In this document: positions 9,079-25,439 of the stretch, in pieces
Layout: the number at the start of each line of letters is the position of its first letter
Numbering within the stretch: the first letter of the stretch is position 1
Source of the DNA: a virus
Strand: one strand, 5' to 3'
DNA: 25,439 nt
IMG/VR virus record: IMGVR_UViG_3300009183_004141
Location: 1-25,439 of that record
The notes under the pieces: model-generated
Seen by the model: only the letters and a program-made list of their open reading frames with translations
What the model was told of the DNA's origin: nothing
Database searches by the model: none
Program-made: the position numbers and the translations under genes

Positions 9079-9390
9079 ATGAAAAAACTATTAGCGATCT
9101 TATTAATGACTATTAGCGTCACGGCGATGGCACAACATCACGGACACTATGGTCATCATAACAACTATTACAGAGGTGGTAACGGATGGGGGTGGATAGC
9201 ACCGGCAGTTATTGGCGGTGTTGTAGTTTACGGAATGACTCGTCCACATATTGTTCAACAACCTCCTGTAGTAGTAATACAACAACCAAATCAAATGATT
9301 GTGCCCTATGCGGCTCCTCAAGGATTCCATTGGGAACAAATTCTAGATGCGAATTGTAATTGCTATAGAACAGTACTAGTACAAGGATAA
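9079..9390 (+). CDS. Secreted His/Gly-rich small protein of unknown function
   Basis: The 103-residue protein begins with a clear Sec signal peptide (MKKLLAILLMTISVTAMA, cleavage before Q19). A His/Gly/Tyr/Asn-rich stretch (HHGHYGHHNNYYRGG), a Gly/Val hydrophobic segment (WIAPAVIGGVVVYGM), a Pro/Gln/Val-rich linker and a Cys-containing end (DANCNCYRTVLVQG) follow. I do not recognise the family. The His cluster could bind metal. It sits just before iscU, one base apart. It should be exported to the periplasm or envelope. Confidence 0.7.
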   Translation: MKKLLAILLMTISVTAMAQHHGHYGHHNNYYRGGNGWGWIAPAVIGGVVVYGMTRPHIVQQPPVVVIQQPNQMIVPYAAPQGFHWEQILDANCNCYRTVLVQG

Positions 9391-9391
9391 T

Positions 9392-9772
9392 ATGGCTTAT
9401 TCGGAAAAAGTACTCGATCACTACGAGAATCCACGCAACGTAGGGTCGTTTGCTAAAGACGACCCTACGGTAGGTACCGGTATGGTTGGTGCGCCTGCTT
9501 GCGGTGATGTAATGAAATTACAAATTAAAGTAGAAGATGGCATTATTACCGATGCACGTTTTAAAACATACGGATGTGGCTCAGCTATTGCAAGTTCATC
9601 ACTCATTACAGAGTGGGTCAAAGGTAAGACGTTGGATGAAGCAGGATCTATTAAGAATAGTGAAATTGCTGAAGAGCTAGCATTACCTCCAGTCAAGATA
9701 CATTGTTCAATACTAGCAGAGGATGCTATCAAAGCGGCCGTAAATGATTATCGTAACCGACACAGCAAGTAA
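9392..9772 (+). CDS. iscU: Iron-sulfur cluster scaffold protein IscU
   Basis: At 126 residues this is full length for IscU and reads almost like the gamma/betaproteobacterial protein. All cluster ligands are present: C37 in GAPACGDVM, D39, C62 in TYGCGSAIASS, and H104/C105 in KIHCSILAEDA. The LPPVK motif at 98-102, which the Hsp70 HscA recognises to release clusters, is intact. No iscS, hscA or hscB is visible here, so it probably works with host partners. It overlaps iscA by 29 nt, which indicates coupled translation. The close match to bacterial IscU implies recent acquisition from a host. Confidence 0.95.
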   Translation: MAYSEKVLDHYENPRNVGSFAKDDPTVGTGMVGAPACGDVMKLQIKVEDGIITDARFKTYGCGSAIASSSLITEWVKGKTLDEAGSIKNSEIAEELALPPVKIHCSILAEDAIKAAVNDYRNRHSK

Positions 9773-10070
9773 AAAGATTAAACAAAATTTAGAGCGCCGC
9801 GGTAAAGGTGTAGGTATACGGGTAGGTGTACGTACTACAGGATGCAGTGGATTGGCATACACTATAGAATACGTTGACGAATATCTAGCTGAAGTAGGCG
9901 TTACTAATTTTGCTCAAAAAGACTTTGTTGTGTTAATAGATGCCAAAAGTCTAGCCTACCTAAATGGACTAACAATGGATTGGGTTCGCAATGGACTCAA
10001 TGAAGGATTTGATTTCATCAATCCAAACGAACGTGACCGTTGTGGTTGTGGCGAATCATTTCGAGTATAA
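9744..10070 (+). CDS. iscA: A-type iron-sulfur carrier IscA/HesB family
   Basis: The 108-residue protein has the three conserved cysteines of A-type carriers: C34 in TTGCSGLAY and C100/C102 in RCGCGESF. The length equals that of E. coli IscA. A-type proteins receive clusters from IscU and pass them to target enzymes. Its ATG lies inside iscU, so the two form a phage Fe-S cassette. Possible clients are ferredoxins needed by the bilin reductase in this window and host metalloproteins. Confidence 0.92.
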   Translation: MIIVTDTASKKIKQNLERRGKGVGIRVGVRTTGCSGLAYTIEYVDEYLAEVGVTNFAQKDFVVLIDAKSLAYLNGLTMDWVRNGLNEGFDFINPNERDRCGCGESFRV

Positions 10071-10713: not shown

Positions 10714-11244
10714 ATGATACGCATTATCAAATTTGTAGTATATGCCCTAGCTTTGCTAGTGGTCTCGTATGTAGGCTATAACGCAGTTGATCGTAAACTG
10801 ACAGGCCTAAAAGAAGCTCATGCACAAGTGAGTCCGGTTACAGCGCAATTAAGACAAAAACAATTAGATTGTCTTGCTCGTAACATCTATCATGAAGCCG
10901 GTAGCGAACCTTTTGAAGGCAAGGTTGCAGTGGCACAAGTTACCCTAAACAGAGCAGAAAGTGGACAATTCCCTTCTGACATCTGCCAAGTAGTATATCA
11001 AAAGAACATAGTTTATGAAAAAGTACTTTGCCAATTTAGCTGGTACTGTGATAGCGCAAGCCTAAAAAAGCCAATGAACGGTCCAATTTATTATGAATCT
11101 ATGGAAGTGGCTAAAAAAGTGCTGTTAGAAGGTTTTCGGTTGCCATCAATGAAGGATGCACTATATTTCCATGGGGATTACATTAACCCGGGATGGAAAC
11201 GCGAACGGGTTGCCAAAGTAGGTCGTCACATTTTTTACAAATAA
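10714..11244 (+). CDS. SleB/CwlJ-type cell wall hydrolase (endolysin)
   Basis: The 176-residue protein has an N-terminal hydrophobic helix (residues 4-22, IIKFVVYALALLVVSYVGY) acting as signal anchor. The Hydrolase_2 domain opens CLARNIYHEAGSEPFEGKVA, with the likely catalytic E61 in YHEA and the conserved VAQVTLNR. It continues with CQFSWYCD and YFHGDYINPGW. SleB-family enzymes cleave peptidoglycan glycan bonds and serve as lysins in many T4-like aquatic phages. The signal anchor suggests Sec export, possibly as a signal-anchor-release type. Ribosome binding site AAGGAG. A holin-like gene follows. Confidence 0.85.
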   Translation: MIRIIKFVVYALALLVVSYVGYNAVDRKLTGLKEAHAQVSPVTAQLRQKQLDCLARNIYHEAGSEPFEGKVAVAQVTLNRAESGQFPSDICQVVYQKNIVYEKVLCQFSWYCDSASLKKPMNGPIYYESMEVAKKVLLEGFRLPSMKDALYFHGDYINPGWKRERVAKVGRHIFYK

Positions 11245-16734: not shown

Positions 16735-17967
16735 ATGAGCAAAATCATCGGTATCGACTTAGGTACAACAAATAGCTGTGTAGCAGTCCTAGAAAACGGA
16801 GTTGCTAAAGTAATTGAAAACAGCGAAGGTGCTAGAACAACACCATCAATCGTAGCTTACACTAAAGACGAGATTCTCGTTGGTGCCACAGCAAAACGAC
16901 AAGCAGTAACAAACCCAAAAAATACAATCTATGCTAGTAAGCGTTTGATCGGACGTAAGTTTGATGAGGCCGCAGTACAAAAAGATATTGACTTGATGCC
17001 TTACACTATTATCAAAGCTGATAACGGTGATGCGTGGATTGAAGCAAATGGCGAAAAATTGGCGCCGCCGCAGATTTCAGCAGAAGTTCTTCGCAAGATG
17101 AAGAAGACCGCAGAGGACTATTTGGGCCACGAAGTTACCCAAGCAGTTATCACCGTGCCTGCGTACTTCAACGACAGCCAACGTCAAGCTACTAAGGATG
17201 CAGGTAAGATTGCAGGCCTAGAAGTTCTACGCATCATCAACGAGCCAACTGCGGCGGCCTTATCATATGGTGTTGATAAAGCAGAAAAGAAGGATCGTAA
17301 GATTGCAGTGTACGACTTGGGTGGTGGCACATTTGACGTAAGTATTATTGAAATTGCCAACATCGATGGCGACAAACAAATCGAAGTACTGTCAACAAAC
17401 GGCGACACCTTCTTGGGCGGCGAAGACTTTGACCAAGTGATTATGGACTACTTGGTAGATGAGTTCAAGAAAGAATCCGGTGTTGATCTTAAGAAAGACA
17501 TGTTAGCACTACAACGTTTGAAAGACTCTGCAGAAAAAGCCAAGATTGAATTGTCTAGTACACAAAGCACTAGTGTTAATTTGCCTTATATTACAGCAGA
17601 TGCAAGTGGCCCCAAGCACATGAACGTAACTATCAATCGTGCCAAGTTTGAGGCAATGGTTGAAACATTAATCCAACGTTCAATTGAGCCATGCCGTGTT
17701 GCTATGAAAGACGCAGGCGTTACAAATGCAGATATTGACGAAGTTATCTTAGTTGGTGGTCAAACACGTATGCCTAAGGTACAAGAAGCAGTTGAAAAGT
17801 TCTTTGGCAAGGCACCACGTAAAGATGTTAATCCAGATGAAGCAGTTGCCGCGGGAGCCGCTATTCAAGGTGCTGTGTTAGCAGGCGACAAGACAGATGT
17901 ACTATTGCTAGATGTTACTCCATTAACATTGGGTATTAAACAATGGGAGGTGTGTTTACCAAGTTGA
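16735..17967 (+). CDS. dnaK: DnaK (Hsp70) nucleotide-binding domain, N-terminal part of frame-split gene
   Basis: The 410-residue frame contains the whole ATPase domain: [15 protein letters not shown] (phosphate 1), [46 protein letters not shown] (phosphate 2) and [12 protein letters not shown] (adenosine). It continues to the interdomain linker [13 protein letters not shown]. After GIK the frame reads QWEVCLPS and stops, while the correct continuation (MGGVFTKL) is in the -1 frame. One extra A near 17938-17940 would restore IKTMGGV, as in E. coli IETMGGV. The sequence resembles betaproteobacterial DnaK (KADNGDAW). AAAGGAG ribosome binding site and late promoter are upstream. It is either a sequencing or assembly indel, or a DnaK split at its domain boundary. 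Confidence 0.9.
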
Positions 17968-18635
17968 TTCAAAAGAATACAACTATACCAACCAAACACT
18001 CACAAGTGTTCTCAACAGCAGACGATAATCAACCAGCAGTTACTATCAAAGTAGCACAAGGTGAACGTGAGTTGTTTAAGTACAATAAGATTCTAGGTGA
18101 GTTTAACCTAGAAGGTATTGCACCTGCACCTCGCGGCACACCGCAAATTGAAGTTACACTTGATATTGATGCTAACGGTATCTTGAATGTAAGTGCCAAA
18201 GATAAAAATACTGGCAAAGAAAACAAGATTACTATCAAATCAGATAGTGGATTAAGTAAAGAAGATATTGAGCGTATGGTTCAAGAAGCTGAACAAAACG
18301 CAGAGTCAGATAAGAAAGCAAAAGAATTGATTGAAGCACGTAATGGTGCTGATGCGCAAGTTCATTCTCTAAAGAAAGATTATGACACTTACAAAGATCA
18401 ATTAACTGACGAAGAAAAGAATGCTATCGACACAGCCCTTCAAGGGGTTAACGATGCATCAAATGGTGAGGATGCTGAAACTATTCAAAAGTCAGTATCA
18501 ACACTATTTGAGTCTGCCGCTCCGTTGTTTACAAAGAAACAACAAGCAGAGCAGGCAAAGCAGGCCCAAGCTGAAACGGGTGAACAAACTGTAGATGCCA
18601 GCTTCACAGAAGTTGACCCTACAGACAAAAAGTAA
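17943..18635 (+). CDS. dnaK: DnaK (Hsp70) substrate-binding domain, C-terminal part of frame-split gene
   Basis: The 230-residue frame starts at the ATG of [21 protein letters not shown], overlapping the first part by 25 nt. It holds the beta-sandwich domain ([59 protein letters not shown]), the helical lid ([18 protein letters not shown]) and a Gln/Ala-rich tail. It ends [11 protein letters not shown], like the EEV-type tail of bacterial DnaK. No Shine-Dalgarno precedes its ATG, and upstream in this frame a TAA stands at 17937. There is no slippery heptamer at the junction, so ribosomal frameshifting is not a good explanation. The two parts together would give about 634 residues, normal for DnaK. 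Confidence 0.88.
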
Positions 18636-19150: not shown

Positions 19151-19168
19151 ACTTTGAAAGAGAACAAG

Positions 19169-19471
19169 ATGCCAAGTACAGATATCCAACTAGAAGAAAA
19201 GATTAAAATTAAAGCAACTGAACCAAGACGTTGGAAAGTAATCTTACTTAATGACGATACAACTCCTATTGAATTTGTAATTTCTTTACTGATAGAAATT
19301 TTTAAACATACTCAAGAAACAGCTAAAGATATAACAATCCAAGTTCACGAAACAGGATCGGGCATTGCTGGAGTATATAGTTTTGAAATAGCAGAAGTAA
19401 AAGCCGTTGAGTCAACACAATTAGCTCGAACAAACGGATATCCATTACAGATTAAACTGGAGGAAGAATGA
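19169..19471 (+). CDS. clpS: ClpS, N-end-rule adaptor of ClpAP
   Basis: The 100-residue protein matches ClpS throughout. RRWKVILLNDDTTPIEFV contains the N28/D29/D30 pocket for the substrate amino-terminus. H60 is in QVHETGSGIAGVYSFEIAE, the conserved strand that contacts the peptide and ClpA. The C-terminal helix-strand reads LARTNGYPLQIKLEEE. ClpS delivers proteins with destabilising N-terminal residues to ClpAP, so a phage copy could redirect host proteolysis. I use ATG 19169, since AAGAGA lies upstream; an in-frame TTG exists at 19154. The stop overlaps the heme oxygenase start (ATGA). Confidence 0.93.
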   Translation: MPSTDIQLEEKIKIKATEPRRWKVILLNDDTTPIEFVISLLIEIFKHTQETAKDITIQVHETGSGIAGVYSFEIAEVKAVESTQLARTNGYPLQIKLEEE

Positions 19472-20016
19472 GTCTAAAAGAACTAACACACGAAGCACAT
19501 AAAAATGCTGAAACACAGCCTTTTGTAAAAATTCTTTTTTCGGGTAAAATTAATCCCAAATTATACGCAACGTACTTAAAGAATCAACATCCTTGCTACG
19601 AAATTTTAGAAGTGTGTGCTATGCCGCATAGACTATTAGCCGGCGAAGATGCACGTAGAGCTCCTGCTATCCTAGCAGATTTTGTAGAATTATGGGATGA
19701 CAACGACGGCGAGGCACAGATTATGCCAGCCACTGAAGCATACATTAAATATATTTTATCAATTAAAGACAATCCTAAAAAGTTAATGGCACACATTTAT
19801 GTGCGTCATATGGGCGACCTTGCAGGTGGCCAGATGATTGCTAAACGTGTTCCAGGATCTGGAAAATATTATCAATTTAAAGACCCAGAAACACTTAAAG
19901 CAGATATTCGTAGTAAAATTGACGATTCCATGGCCGACGAAGCTAAAGTGTGCTTTAAGTTTGCAGAAGACATGTTTAAAGACATGATGGAAATAGTTGA
20001 GTTTAACGATGAGTAA
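19468..20016 (+). CDS. hemO: Heme oxygenase
   Basis: The 182-residue all-helical protein of the HO-1 type opens LKELTHEAHKNAETQPFVKI, with H11 the probable proximal heme ligand. The distal helix carries HIYVRHMGDLAGGQMIAKRV (GDLAGGQ, residues 116-122), the family signature. The enzyme opens heme to biliverdin IX-alpha, CO and Fe2+ using reduced ferredoxin. It overlaps clpS by 4 nt and the bilin reductase by 8 nt, so the two bilin genes are translationally coupled. Cyanophages carry ho1 with pebS; this window lacks photosynthesis genes. Confidence 0.92.
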   Translation: MSLKELTHEAHKNAETQPFVKILFSGKINPKLYATYLKNQHPCYEILEVCAMPHRLLAGEDARRAPAILADFVELWDDNDGEAQIMPATEAYIKYILSIKDNPKKLMAHIYVRHMGDLAGGQMIAKRVPGSGKYYQFKDPETLKADIRSKIDDSMADEAKVCFKFAEDMFKDMMEIVEFNDE

Positions 20017-20699: not shown

Positions 20700-22454
20700 A
20701 TGAGATTTCAAGAATTTAAACTTAATTTGTTAGAAGCCAGCGGCGGAATGTGGGACCGTATGGCAGAACGCCGCAGTGGAAAACCTATTGTTTTTGGCAA
20801 AGGCGATAGAACACTAGATTTGATTGATGTACAAGTTTTCCCTCAAGATCCAAAAATTACATCGTACAAAGATCTAGTCACTGCTGAACCACAAGCAAAA
20901 ACATCTGCAAAACAACCAGCTAAAACAGAACCGCAATGGAAGGGCCGTCAACAACCAACTGCTACAGCCGCGGTGGCACCTGTAGTTCCTGTAGCAGTTA
21001 CTCCTGATAACATTGATCAACAATTAGAAGTTCCTGCAGAGCAAGATGAACAAGAGCGTCCAGAAGCAATTGCAGAAGATGCACAAATGGCAAATGCATC
21101 TCATACACAAGTTATGTTAGATGATATCCTACAGTGGATACAATCACAAGAGGCTACTATTGAATACGCACAACCTCCAAAAAACAGTGATGCCGCGGCA
21201 ATGGTTGTTATACTAGGTGGAACAGACGAAAACGGTGTAGTTGAAAAGTTTGCGTTTGTTAACTGGTATTCAGAAAAGAAAAGCAAGGTTCCGCCTTTAT
21301 TCTGGAAAACAATTCGTTTCGAAGAAGCAACAGGATGGGTACAAGGAAGTGCTGGTAAGAGTGCAACATCAAAAGCCGCATTACTAAGAATTGATCCATC
21401 AGACTTGCTTGATGCAAATCAAACATACGATATTGCCAGTGTTCCTGATGAAGTGGCATCGGGTAGATTAGCGACTAGAACTGATATCCCAAGAGAACTA
21501 GTTGCAGGAGTTCCTGCAATGCTTACCGATTTATTAAACAATGCAAGCCCAGTTCCAACACAAGACTTGGAAAAATACGAACGCGAGTTGGAAGTTGTAC
21601 TCGGTGAAACAGCGGCACCTATTGCCTTAATGACTGGTAACAGAGTATCAGGTGCATACGATGAAGTAACTACACAATTATTAGAGCCTATGGGCTTAAC
21701 ATGGGGAGACTTTACTACAGTTACCTATGGTAAGAAAGGTGGTAAAGTTGAAGACTGTTCTGTATATGCTAACGAAACAAAGTTAATGGTTAGTAGTAAA
21801 GACAGTGGTGGCGGTGCCCCAGCTAGCTTAACAGGATTCATGGAAACGCTTGAAAAGTATCCAGACCAATTTGGTCCAGGAACTAAGTTTGCAGAACAGT
21901 ATGCTGATATCTTAACTGTATTACAAACACTACATACAAGAAGTTCTATGATGGGGATTCTAACAGCATCTCTTGATTTAGGATTTATTGATGAGCAAGA
22001 AGCTCAGTATATTATGAGCATCTACGGTAAAGCTACAGGCAGTATGAAGGATGCTAAAAACTTCTCTAATTTGTCAACTGTATTAAAAGCCAAGGGCATT
22101 AAGGGTTCTACTATAACTAATGCCAAAGGCGAGAAGGTTGTATCTAAACAAGGTGTTGATGTTGGTAATTTTAAATACCAGTTTGGTTATCATTTAATGG
22201 GTAATCTTGCAGTAATGTTACAAAAGCATTTTGCCAAGGATCAAGACCGTGTTACAAAAATGTTTAAATCTGTATTAAACAGAGCTGACATGGTGCAAGT
22301 ATACACAAAAGTTGGCAAAAGTAGCCAAGGTTTATGGTTTGATGATTTTAAAGTAACATGGCCGCCAACATTTGATGGTAAAATTGTTATCATAGCAGAT
22401 CACTATACAGCTAATGCGCCCGCCGCAAAGAAAATTAGTTTCTACTTCAAATAA
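20700..22454 (+). CDS. Large uncharacterised phage protein
   Basis: The 584-residue soluble protein belongs to no family I recognise. Residues 1-55 (MRFQEFKLNLLEASGGMWDR onward) are followed by an Ala/Pro/Gln/Thr-rich disordered linker to about 105 and an acidic stretch. A mixed alpha/beta region with AMVVILGGTDENGVVEKFAF follows. A second half includes YGKKGGKVEDCSVYANETKLMVSS, KDSGGGAPASLTGFMETL and a C-terminal WPPTFDGKIVIIADHY strand. No membrane segment or signal peptide is seen. An N-terminal MxFxEF start is common in late genes of T4-like aquatic phages, which hints at a virion or ejected protein. There is no Shine-Dalgarno. A late promoter candidate lies just upstream. Confidence 0.6.
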   Translation: MRFQEFKLNLLEASGGMWDRMAERRSGKPIVFGKGDRTLDLIDVQVFPQDPKITSYKDLVTAEPQAKTSAKQPAKTEPQWKGRQQPTATAAVAPVVPVAVTPDNIDQQLEVPAEQDEQERPEAIAEDAQMANASHTQVMLDDILQWIQSQEATIEYAQPPKNSDAAAMVVILGGTDENGVVEKFAFVNWYSEKKSKVPPLFWKTIRFEEATGWVQGSAGKSATSKAALLRIDPSDLLDANQTYDIASVPDEVASGRLATRTDIPRELVAGVPAMLTDLLNNASPVPTQDLEKYERELEVVLGETAAPIALMTGNRVSGAYDEVTTQLLEPMGLTWGDFTTVTYGKKGGKVEDCSVYANETKLMVSSKDSGGGAPASLTGFMETLEKYPDQFGPGTKFAEQYADILTVLQTLHTRSSMMGILTASLDLGFIDEQEAQYIMSIYGKATGSMKDAKNFSNLSTVLKAKGIKGSTITNAKGEKVVSKQGVDVGNFKYQFGYHLMGNLAVMLQKHFAKDQDRVTKMFKSVLNRADMVQVYTKVGKSSQGLWFDDFKVTWPPTFDGKIVIIADHYTANAPAAKKISFYFK

Positions 22455-22505: not shown

Positions 22506-22541
22506 CTCCCGCTAGTAAATACTATTACGGCACACCGGGAG
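22506..22541 (+). promoter_or_regulatory. csgF control region: late promoter inside an RBS-masking hairpin
   Basis: CTCCCG (22506-22511) is perfectly complementary to CGGGAG (22536-22541), which contains the csgF ribosome binding site. Between them lies AGTAAATA (22514-22521), which has the TAAATA core of a late promoter and a predicted start near 22527. A late transcript would keep the ribosome binding site and lose the masking arm. Confidence 0.45.
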
Positions 22542-22548
22542 CGAATCG

Positions 22549-23019
22549 ATGTCCAAAACAAAACTAATAATATTAGCATTGCTACCATTAAATTTAATGG
22601 CGGCAGAATTACAACATAACTTTAACAGTCCATCTTTTTCAGGAATTGGATATAGTTCTCATGTCTTAACGCTATATCAATTAGAAACACAAGCTAAAGA
22701 TAAAAACAAAGCCGCGGCTGATGCGTTAAAAGCTAAAGAAGAAAGTGATAAGTTAAACACTCCGCAAGCTAAGTTTCAAGCAAACTTAGAAAGCCGTATC
22801 TACTCACAGTTAGCCAAACAAATTACAGATAGTTTGTTTGGGTCTAACGGAGCCCCACAATGCACAGTGTCCAATGGTGTGTGTGGTGAAATGTCAGTTG
22901 CTGGCAATAATATTACTTGGAAAGTAGACGGAGCATTTATTATCGTTAGAATTGAAAATGCGCTTGATCCAAGACAATTTACAGAAATGAAAGTGCCGAG
23001 CGGTACTTTTGGATTTTAA
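22549..23019 (+). CDS. csgF: Curli secretion specificity factor CsgF
   Basis: The 156-residue protein has an N-terminal signal peptide (KLIILALLPLNLMAA, cleavage before E20). It is followed by the CsgF core ELQHNFNSPSFSGIGYSSHV, which in E. coli CsgF (TFQFRNPNFGG) inserts into the CsgG pore. A Lys/Ala/Asp-rich segment leads to FQANLESRIYSQLAKQITDS, matching the E. coli FTQAIQSQIL helix. A Cys pair (APQCTVSNGVCGE) and a beta C-terminus follow. CsgF forms the second constriction of the curli channel and couples it to the fibre nucleator. GGGAG is the ribosome binding site. csgG starts 9 nt downstream. Confidence 0.85.
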   Translation: MSKTKLIILALLPLNLMAAELQHNFNSPSFSGIGYSSHVLTLYQLETQAKDKNKAAADALKAKEESDKLNTPQAKFQANLESRIYSQLAKQITDSLFGSNGAPQCTVSNGVCGEMSVAGNNITWKVDGAFIIVRIENALDPRQFTEMKVPSGTFGF

Positions 23020-23028
23020 GGATAGATT

Positions 23029-24210
23029 ATGAAAAAAACATTATTGTCCTTATCAGTCGTGGCCATTTTATCAGGATGTGCTACAGGATCGGCTATTAAG
23101 GAAAAGCTAACTGGAAATCAGTTTGACGACCCAACAGTTGAAACTAGCAAATTTTTAAAGAAAGATGCTAATAAATTACAACCACCAGCAGGCGGACCTG
23201 TAGCAGTAGCAGTTTATGGATTCCGAGATTTAACTGGACAGCGTAAGTCGCAACCATTAATTGCCAGTTTAAGTTCAGCAGTTACTCAAGGCGCTGAAAA
23301 CTATCTAATCAAAGCACTACAAGATGTGGGTGATGCTCGTTGGTTTACCGTATTAGAGCGTGTTGGTTTAGAAAACTTGATTAAAGAGCGCCAAATGATT
23401 CGTCAGATGCGTGAGCAGTATCAAGGAAAAGATGCCAAGGCATTACCTCCTATGATGTTTGCTGGAATTATTATGGAAGGCGGTATTGTTGGGTATGACA
23501 GCAATACATTAACAGGCGGAAGTGGCGTGAGAATTTTTGGTATTGGCGCTAGTACGCAATATCAATCAGATACAGTAACAGTAACTCTAAGAACAGTTAG
23601 TGTAGCAACTGGTGAAATTTTAACCACAGTTACAGTAACAAAAACAGTCCTAAGCTATATGGACAAACTAACATTACTACGTTTTGTTGACGATGGCACA
23701 CAATACGGGGCCGGAGCAAATGCGTTAGAAGGCGAGCTAGGCGGCAGTATTAACGAGAGTATTAACCGAGCCATTGATGTAGCTGTACAGGCGGCAGTAG
23801 TTAATACAATTAACGAAGGTGCTCGCAAAGGGCATTGGGCATTTAAACAATATAGAGCAGATGTGCCAGCACCGTTACCTATCAAAGAAGAAGTCAAAGT
23901 AGTAGAAGAAAAGAAAGAAGTGGTAGTAGAAAAATCACTACCTCAAGTTGAACCTAAAATAGAAACCGTGTTGGCCGCGGTTGCTGTAGTAAAGAAAGAA
24001 GAACCTAAACCGTTATTTGGCCAGCGTACACTAAAAGAAAATTCTTTTTTGTATACAAATGAAAATGAAGCAAGTACTCGTAAATGGTGGATACCTAAAG
24101 GCACAGTAGTAGATGTAAAACAGCCCGGAATAGAAGGCTGGTGGAGAGTAACGATTGCTGATGGAACTAATCGTGGAGGTTGGATTCAGACTAACAAGTT
24201 GGAGAATTAA
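23029..24210 (+). CDS. csgG: Curli export channel lipoprotein CsgG with C-terminal SH3-like domain
   Basis: The protein has 393 residues, against 277 in E. coli. A lipoprotein signal ends LSGC with acylated C17. The CsgG domain runs to about residue 280: VAVAVYGFRDLTGQRKSQP, SSAVTQGAENYLIKALQDV, FTVLERVGLENLIKERQMIR, the transmembrane-hairpin region IFGIGASTQYQSDTVTVTLR and a C-terminal helix near IDVAVQAAVVNT. CsgG forms a nine-subunit outer-membrane pore for curlins. A Lys/Glu/Val-rich linker (about 288-330) leads to an extra bacterial SH3-like module (FLYTNENEASTRKWWIPKGT, EGWWRVTIADGTNRGGWIQT). That module could hold peptidoglycan or regulate the pore. Ribosome binding site AAGGA. Confidence 0.9.
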   Translation: MKKTLLSLSVVAILSGCATGSAIKEKLTGNQFDDPTVETSKFLKKDANKLQPPAGGPVAVAVYGFRDLTGQRKSQPLIASLSSAVTQGAENYLIKALQDVGDARWFTVLERVGLENLIKERQMIRQMREQYQGKDAKALPPMMFAGIIMEGGIVGYDSNTLTGGSGVRIFGIGASTQYQSDTVTVTLRTVSVATGEILTTVTVTKTVLSYMDKLTLLRFVDDGTQYGAGANALEGELGGSINESINRAIDVAVQAAVVNTINEGARKGHWAFKQYRADVPAPLPIKEEVKVVEEKKEVVVEKSLPQVEPKIETVLAAVAVVKKEEPKPLFGQRTLKENSFLYTNENEASTRKWWIPKGTVVDVKQPGIEGWWRVTIADGTNRGGWIQTNKLEN

Positions 24211-24431
24211 GGTGTTGTTTTTTTAACAGTGTAAATTTTTTAACAGTAAAAAAAATAACAGCGGCATATAACTTTTGTAAAGAAGTAATTAAATATTTTA
24301 AACAAGCATTGCTTGTTAAAGGAAGGCAGTAAAACAACATAATGGCCAGTGGCCAAGGAGCGATGCGGGGTATAAACTAAGCGTTTGTAAACAATTACAA
24401 ACAAGGTGTTCCAACCCAAATCAGTAACAAA
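24211..24431 (+). promoter_or_regulatory. Structured control region before the curlin-like gene
   Basis: This 221-bp gap has no gene but several ordered elements. A 12-bp direct repeat TTTTTTAACAGT occurs at 24219-24230 and 24236-24247, 17 bp apart. An 8-bp-arm palindrome AACAAGCA/TGCTTGTT occupies 24301-24317. TGGCCAGTGGCCA lies near 24343-24355. TATAAACT at 24371-24378 is a weak late-promoter match. A hairpin GTTTGTAA/TTACAAAC is at 24383-24402. The predicted start from TATAAACT (about 24384) falls at the hairpin's first bases. The A/T-rich part resembles a regulator binding region. Confidence 0.5.
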
Positions 24432-25247
24432 ATGAAAAATAGAATGACAGGCGGTTGTGGGTTGTCGAGAAAATTACTCACTGTGATGCTTTTGAGCTTT
24501 GCCACCATAAGTGGTGCCCAGACAGCAACAGGTCCTAACAAGGTCTATATCGAACAAGTAGGTAGTAGCAATACTATTACTATTGAGCAAGTTGGTGGGA
24601 CCAACAATGTCGGCGGGGTTACTACAAGTGTAGCAACAGCAGTAGCAGGCACTGGTATTACTACGCTGACGCCAGACGCACCTAGTGCAACTAACTATGG
24701 AACTATCACAGGTAGTACTAACACCGTCGACATTACACAGACTGGCAGTGGAAACAGTAGCCAATACAACATTCGTGGCAGTAATAACAGCTACACTACC
24801 AATATGTTAGGAAACAATAATCAAACTAGATTGACCGTTGGTAACCCTAATAATGCTACTAATAGTCTTAACGTTATTACAGAACAGATTATTGGTAACA
24901 ACAACATGATCATACAAGATCTAGTTGGTAGTAACATTACTACAGATACTCATCTAGTCGGCGATGGTAATCAAGTTACTAGTAGTTTGCTTAGTAGTAG
25001 AGGCACAGTATCAAATGTAGTTACTGGCAATTCTAACGTATTCAACATTCAGCAAACAGATGCCGCTGGCGCAAATGGGGATGTTCTTGCTATGATGACT
25101 ACTGGCGACTATAACAGTATTACTACACAGCAACAAGGTATTAACGATACTACTGTAAATATTCAAACTATGGGTAGCAACAACACTATCACAGTTCGTT
25201 CAAGTAGTTCAACTATTGTATCGCCAGCTACAGCAGTTGCGAGGTAA
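24432..25247 (+). CDS. Curlin-like amyloid repeat protein (CsgA/CsgB-like)
   Basis: The 271-residue protein begins with a signal peptide (LLTVMLLSFATISGA, cleavage before Q30). The mature part is rich in Asn, Thr, Ser, Gln and Gly, with repeats of the form V-x-I-x-Q-x-G-x-x-N: VYIEQVGSSNTITIEQVGG, NTVDITQTGSGNSSQYNIRG, FNIQQTDAAG and VNIQTMGSNNTITV. This is the curlin strand-loop-strand pattern, which stacks into a beta-solenoid amyloid. The repeats are less regular than in CsgA, so it may be a nucleator or minor curlin. csgF and csgG upstream make it the expected cargo. No good Shine-Dalgarno is visible, and ATG 24444 is an alternative start. Confidence 0.8.
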   Translation: MKNRMTGGCGLSRKLLTVMLLSFATISGAQTATGPNKVYIEQVGSSNTITIEQVGGTNNVGGVTTSVATAVAGTGITTLTPDAPSATNYGTITGSTNTVDITQTGSGNSSQYNIRGSNNSYTTNMLGNNNQTRLTVGNPNNATNSLNVITEQIIGNNNMIIQDLVGSNITTDTHLVGDGNQVTSSLLSSRGTVSNVVTGNSNVFNIQQTDAAGANGDVLAMMTTGDYNSITTQQQGINDTTVNIQTMGSNNTITVRSSSSTIVSPATAVAR

Positions 25248-25249
25248 TT

Positions 25250-25439
25250 ATGCGTGTCCTATTGTTAGCCCTACTGCTAACATTTATCAGCCCTTTATGG
25301 GCTGGTATCGGCACGGTTTCAGACAACAAAGGTACTGCTTGTGAAGTTGAACGTAACAAGAAAAAGATGTCTGGTGTTAAGGGTGCTGAAATTGAAAGCA
25401 TGGATACTTACACTACTGGTGCGTGTGTAAGTAATATAA
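25250..25439 (+). CDS. Secreted FecR-domain-like protein (3' end outside window)
   Basis: The gene starts 2 nt after the curlin-like gene, with AGG upstream of the ATG, and the frame runs off the window after 63 codons. A signal peptide (MRVLLLALLLTFISPLWA) precedes GIGTVSDNKGTACEVERNKK and AEIESMDTYTTGACVSNI. The pattern 'I-G-V...G...R.....MD-T-x-TG' resembles the start of FecR-type domains, found in other periplasmic phage and bacterial proteins. The family call is tentative because most of the domain is missing. It probably belongs to the curli module as a periplasmic partner. Confidence 0.5.
   Translation, partial: MRVLLLALLLTFISPLWAGIGTVSDNKGTACEVERNKKKMSGVKGAEIESMDTYTTGACVSNI

Follow-up and report, generated by a model that had tools for sequence, protein, structure and literature searches.

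Curli modules have been known in phages since 2020, and their role is not agreed. The operon was reported together with a proposal of sibling capture (PMC7029224), the order csgF-csgG-curlin-FecR-curlin-cyclase, with CsgA/B-like cargo and an adenylate cyclase, has been described in pelagiphages, both podo- and myophages (PMC9599517; Wittmers 2022), and a lysis pore was proposed for the phage Melnitz, which was said to be without csgA and csgB (PMC9004378). Here we describe a module of this kind in IMG/VR virus record IMGVR_UViG_3300009183_004141 (positions 1 to 25,439; the window, that is, the whole stretch of 25,439 bases that was analyzed), at whose 3′ end csgF, csgG, a curlin-repeat cargo gene (cur1) and the start of a fecR-like gene form one run on the + strand (Table 1). 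By gene content this run is the first half of a predicted phage type VIII secretion (curli) operon; a second curlin gene (cur2) and a CHASE2 cyclase gene follow in relatives, from which we infer that this phage's own copies lie beyond the contig end. The module is known in kind, and the window represents a variant whose new features, for the most part read in its relatives, are a late promoter core, a chimeric cur2, an SH3b-like domain on CsgG and a kept CsgF plug. We put at roughly 0.6 the probability that it builds a late, adhesive, lectin-decorated curli fiber on the infected cell and is not a lysis pore.

The cultured phages HTVC008M and Melnitz carry csgF-csgG-curlin-FecR-second curlin-cyclase, the order seen in the window's relatives, and share with HTVC023P-type podophages both this gene order and the lack of csgC and csgE. 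The GenBank record of Melnitz (MZ577095, our locus L003) annotates two curlin associated repeat proteins, at odds with the published description of its gene content (PMC9004378). A preliminary description of the window had pointed to CsgG/CsgF homologues in pelagiphages, correctly, as HTVC008M and Melnitz have the same operon (PMC7029224; PMC9599517); it had also called a cargo amyloid beside csgFG less familiar, a claim that falls because such cargo is already annotated in HTVC008M and Melnitz and CsgA/B are described in pelagiphages (PMC9599517). Against the pelagiphage module, CsgG of the window clade is 40-42% identical and fused to the SH3b-like domain, cur2 of the clade has X1 and F5/8C domains (see below), and the window's relatives lie on contigs of up to 353 kilobases (kb) with T4-type gp23. 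A histidine kinase gene precedes csgF in podophages only; in the window the gene at this place (20700-22454) has no Pfam match.

With E. coli curli (csgBAC/csgDEFG) the phage module shares the CsgG pore, CsgF and secreted curlin subunits of about 22 residues per repeat, but it is without CsgE and CsgC, includes FecR and the CHASE2 cyclase in the operon, is under phage control and has a longer cargo, cur1 giving no match to the CsgA/CsgB equivalog models. In Halomonas, Azospirillum and other Proteobacteria (loci L119-L184), csgF-csgG has one or two curlin genes nearby; in most bacterial loci retrieved with the profile of CsgG, neither a FecR nor a cyclase relative stands next to csgFG, and the bacterial curlins among eight proteins scanned consist of curlin repeats only, with no F5/8C or PA14 domain. 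Loci L116, L117, L121 and L186, from genome hits, hold the complete module (L118 and L123 partly), but they are short metagenome-bin contigs with phage gene order and were taken as phage contamination and not as bacterial operons.

Conserved cargo and pore

A search of 2.9 million viral contigs returned 33 loci by cur1 and 80 by CsgG, which after removal of near-copies gave 65 distinct viral modules, the window, HTVC008M and Melnitz included. Counted over modules with enough DNA after csgG, the frequencies are 61/61 for cur1, 55/55 for FecR, 53/53 for cur2 and 40/45 for the CHASE2 cyclase. The preliminary description had placed csgF, csgG, a curlin-repeat gene and a FecR-like secreted gene together, with which the Pfam and PHROG matches agree, and both the conserved association of the repeat protein with csgFG and the occurrence of the module in related phages, which it had left to be looked for, are borne out by these counts.

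The repeat ladder of cur1 is not a chance pattern. The mature protein has 13 G-x-x-N motifs against 3.6 expected (maximum in 5000 shuffles, 11), mostly spaced by about 11 or 22 residues, and the Q-x-G-x-x-N form already noticed in the preliminary description occurs 3 times against 0.22 expected. For curlin repeats a length of 23 ± 5 has been reported (PMC10192328), and this spacing is consistent with it. The Curlin_rpt match of the window protein alone (E 7e-4) falls just short of the curated cut-off; 48 of 59 cur1 relatives match at E ≤ 0.01, and the family profile retrieves, at E 4e-9, the curlin of known structure R15.5 (8c50), whose fibers have been studied by cryo-electron microscopy (PMC10192328). 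AlphaFold2 models cur1 as a stack of beta-arches, with strands at residues 91-258 and a predicted local distance difference test score (pLDDT) mostly above 80. A tblastn search with cur1 gave no match in annotated phages, as the cargo has diverged too far for pairwise comparison; the curlins of HTVC008M and Melnitz were located by synteny and profile. The ratio of nonsynonymous to synonymous substitution rates (dN/dS), obtained by a simple counting method on close pairs with dS often near saturation, is 0.07-0.10 for cur1 in the window clade and about 0.02-0.2 over all module genes, low values which argue that the gene products are maintained, the cargo included.

The pore components are likewise recognizable. 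CsgG of the window has a lipobox (LSGC), and the CsgG profile finds solved CsgG at E 6e-102, while the constriction loop of phage CsgG is unlike that of E. coli. The N-terminus of E. coli CsgF is the part that plugs CsgG, and in an alignment of E. coli and phage CsgF the residues F25, P28, F30 and G32 are invariant; the motif F-x-[SN]-P-x-F-x-G is kept in 64/65 phage CsgF proteins, Melnitz among them, against a rate of 8e-5 in shuffled sequences. An SH3b-like domain stands at the C-terminus of CsgG in 17/65 phages by profile, the window included, and in none of the bacterial CsgG proteins examined; the match is strong in the window's relatives (SH3_3 at E 2e-16 in L056, SH3_4 at E 1.5e-9 in L006). 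The usual binding target of SH3b domains is the cell wall, so the fusion would anchor the pore. A different fusion was seen in an alphaproteobacterial CsgG (L120:8968-10416), which is joined to a TonB C-terminal domain (PF13103, E 2.5e-6).

Exchanged domains of the second curlin and the FecR-like protein

In relatives, cur2 ends in a conserved curlin domain of about 165-195 residues that closes on ITVxQG, and the cur2 profile finds R15.5 at E 2e-20; like cur1, cur2 is modeled as stacked beta-arches. The N-terminal part varies. F5/8C domains are found in 16/55 proteins and PA14 domains in 12/55, three nameless families (X1, X2 and X3) occur singly or in combination, and some cur2 proteins have none of these; for X2 and X3, no PDB relative was found by sequence. 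In the AlphaFold2 model of cur2 from locus L009, F5/8C lies between X1 and the curlin stack. It can be superposed on CBM32 modules that bind galactose (E 1e-8 to 1e-5, template modeling score about 0.75 by target), which points to a CBM32-type lectin fold with predicted sugar binding. Mapped onto the CsgG tree, the type of N-terminal domain requires 27 changes or more. Between L016 and L017, DNA identity is mostly 92-95% over csgF-csgG-cur1-fecR, drops to about 51% over the N-terminus of cur2 and then rises to 86-88%, and the pairs L008/L009 and L091/L088 show a similar dip. On these alignments cur2 is best described as a chimera, with a constant curlin C-terminus and exchanged N-terminal domains.

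The text of the fullest account of pelagiphage modules (PMC9599517) is silent on PA14, discoidin, lectin and CHASE2, and within a limited literature collection no paper was found that combines phage, curli and the PA14 domain; we take the swapped domains of cur2 to be new to the literature that this collection covers. An engineered parallel exists in CsgA-nanobody fusions, which are reported to function as displayed fibers (PMC9477280) and also set a foreign binding domain on a curlin scaffold. The phage proteins differ in being natural, in carrying the domain N-terminally and in exchanging it between phages.

The gene between the two curlins encodes a protein whose full-length relatives match FecR (PF04773) at E of about 1e-8 to 1e-9. 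Classical FecR anti-sigma proteins have a cytoplasmic N-terminus, one membrane span, a periplasmic FecR domain and a partner sigma factor. The phage proteins, by hydropathy and sequence, have an N-terminal signal peptide with the FecR domain directly after it and are without the cytoplasmic N-terminus, an architecture which argues against a role as iron regulators; nor do the HTVC008M and Melnitz operons show a gene for a sigma factor. The overlap of fecR with cur2 is mostly 4 nucleotides (nt), and the CHASE2 adenylate/guanylate cyclase comes after cur2 in relatives. The secreted FecR-like protein and the cyclase may together act as a periplasmic sensor of assembly that signals through a cyclic nucleotide. 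FecR C-termini (L012:9686-9910 and others) resemble the curlin repeat, with HYAEV..SNT, GGNxVxIxQ and an end N-x-V-x-I-x-Q, as in cur2; the comparison with the cur2 profile is weak (probability 8%, E 0.005). In L022, L023, L035, L081 and others, 0.9-3.5 kb of extra DNA stands between cur2 and the cyclase.

Apparent mobility, late promoter motif and neighboring genes

Among loci L016, L017, L008, L009, L088 and L091, the module is mostly 85-95% identical and the flanks about 50%. Outside the module, similarity of the flanks can be no higher than expected by chance, so that the cassette as a whole appears to move too, as one piece between otherwise unrelated flanks.

TAAATA is the core of the T4 late promoter (TATAAATA). 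It lies at most 100 nt before csgF in 49/65 modules (median 33 nt), compared with 5.4% of random 100-nt windows, before csgG in 0/65 and at most 100 nt before the curlin gene in just 5/61. The copy upstream of csgF is invariant in 14/14 aligned regions. A second TAAATA, in the csgG-curlin gap, is invariant in the ten close relatives aligned and is a possible separate late promoter for the cargo, a tentative assignment because it lies far from the cur1 start. A scan of the window against Rfam gave zero matches, so no known riboswitch or structured RNA is found in this gap. The phage is T4-like, as judged from its genes for nucleotide functions and chaperones and from the gp23 found on large contigs (280-353 kb) of its clade. 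Signal peptides and other export signals, here and in Table 1, were judged by hydropathy only.

Table 1. Positions of the curli genes and associated elements in the window.
Feature	Positions	Strand	Description
csgF	22549..23019	+	156 aa (amino acids), secreted pore-associated factor; PF10614 E 5.7e-9, phrog_35372 E 1e-28
csgG	23029..24210	+	393 aa, outer-membrane lipoprotein pore; PF03783 E 5.5e-45 over residues 56-271
cur1 (curlin-repeat cargo)	24432..25247	+	271 aa, predicted secreted (hydrophobic N-terminus); Curlin_rpt E 7e-4
fecR-like gene, first 63 codons	25250..25439	+	gene cut by contig end; 95% identical to L012 FecR
TAAATA (T4-type late promoter core)	22516..22521	+	33 nt before csgF
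Second TAAATA	24290..24295	+	csgG-curlin gap, 142 nt from cur1 start codon; tentative
CsgF residues 25-32, F-N-S-P-S-F-S-G	22621..22644	+	aligns with F-R-N-P-N-F-G-G of E. coli CsgF, at the N-terminus that plugs CsgG
SH3b-like C-terminal domain of CsgG	24052..24189	+	after a charged, proline/lysine/glutamate-rich linker; window copy by itself a weak match (SH3_3 E 0.089)

Elsewhere in the window, an endolysin-like hydrolase gene (10714-11244) stands separate from the curli module. The DnaK gene is read in two overlapping frames (16735-17967 and 17943-18635, 410 and 230 aa), the split at about 17940-17967 being either a real frameshift or an assembly error. Adjoining genes for IscU-like (9392-9772) and IscA-like (9744-10070) iron-sulphur assembly proteins, a heme oxygenase-like gene (19468-20016) and a ClpS-like gene (19154-19471), all read from translations, make this a phage rich in host-type genes. 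At 9079-9390 lies a gene for a small secreted histidine/glycine-rich protein (HHGHYGHHNNYYRGG...); a TAAATA core precedes it by 201 nt.

Candidate functions of the module

Gene content and order, secretion signals, the repeat fold, purifying selection, domain swapping and the promoter motif, all of them data of sequence or prediction, are the basis for the following scheme. Late in infection, csgF-csgG-cur1-fecR-cur2-(cyclase) would be transcribed from the T4-type late promoter and the secreted products exported by Sec. CsgG would form the outer-membrane pore, tied to the wall by SH3b in the window clade, with CsgF plugged into it. Through this pore cur1 would leave and stack as a curlin beta-solenoid fiber on the infected cell, where cur2 would co-assemble and add replaceable sugar-binding or other N-terminal domains. 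The fiber would glue the infected cell, and the debris after lysis, to neighbors or particles, so that progeny would be freed beside new hosts. Secretion of both curlins through the pore, their amyloid assembly and co-assembly, the timing and the adhesive benefit are all predicted steps.

Several observations weigh against such a fiber. CsgE improves export in E. coli, and it was found in 0/25 records in a search with a positive E. coli control. CBM32-type domains, being folded, would have to be unfolded to cross the pore, and the F5/8C fold also binds lipids or proteins. Comparison of the cur1 model with the PDB by Foldseek gave nothing at E ≤ 0.001, generic beta-solenoids only, and no clumping was seen in cultures infected with Melnitz (PMC9004378). 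CsgE has been cited as non-essential for the curli phenotype (PMC7029224) and is also absent from known phage modules. The same kind of search found CsgC in 0/17 records, again with a positive E. coli control. CsgC is not a defining part of curli systems outside some lineages. The preliminary description had seen neither csgE nor csgC, in agreement with these searches; of the two genes it hoped to read downstream, csgE or csgB, the first did not appear and a second curlin did, in all relatives read that far.

A late curli coat might instead hide receptors or clog the surface against superinfecting phages, the cur2 domains tracking host surface sugars. The same secretion and domain-swap data fit a barrier of this kind, and curli in biofilms can limit phage penetration, as argued in PMC9599517, but with a late promoter the coat would form only at a stage when exclusion brings the least benefit, and a plain coat has no need of exchangeable lectin domains; we consider it unlikely. 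It is very unlikely, in our view, that CsgG acts as a lysis or depolarizing pore with the other genes as passengers, as proposed for Melnitz (PMC9004378). CsgG without CsgE may be ungated, and the lack of clumping in Melnitz cultures would suit a pore (PMC9004378), but no module with enough DNA has lost its curlins or FecR, purifying selection on them is strong, and an endolysin-like hydrolase is encoded separately in the window. The CsgF plug motif, kept in 64/65 proteins, runs contrary to the suggested loss of CsgF-CsgG pairing, and the premise that csgA and csgB are absent is at odds with the GenBank record of Melnitz (PMC9004378).

The name of the FecR domain and the oligotrophic hosts speak for the view that the pore imports large nutrients such as siderophores or cobalamin for a starved host, with FecR as the link to iron (PMC7029224; PMC9599517). 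This is highly improbable given the FecR architecture set out above, and it leaves curlins with lectin domains unexplained. Late expression, as read from the promoter core, and the resemblance of cur2 swapping to the swapping of tail-fiber adhesins could also point to a fiber on virions or lysis debris that attaches released particles, not the infected cell, to surfaces; with export signals on all the proteins, an outer-membrane pore and no link to virions seen, we find this scarcely credible. The functions suggested in the preliminary description fared differently: the exchange of lectin-like domains on the second curlin strengthens the case for aggregation and adhesion, and the case for a lysis or leak pore is weakened by the constant presence of the cargo, by the strong purifying selection on it and by the separate endolysin-like gene of the window.

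Beyond the adhesive fiber itself, it is possible, though we hold it short of probable, that the phage controls an amyloid fiber late in infection whose tip is exchanged like that of a tail fiber, a second, cell-borne adhesin on a wall-anchored pore, with a periplasmic FecR/CHASE2 cyclase pair reporting its assembly. With exchangeable, predicted sugar-binding domains and a late promoter, the adhesion hypothesis takes a concrete form that can be tested, and the view of a pore alone becomes weaker. If the hypothesis is true, open-water phages may organize the cells they prey on around the one that is dying, and their second curlins would offer natural parts for curli display.

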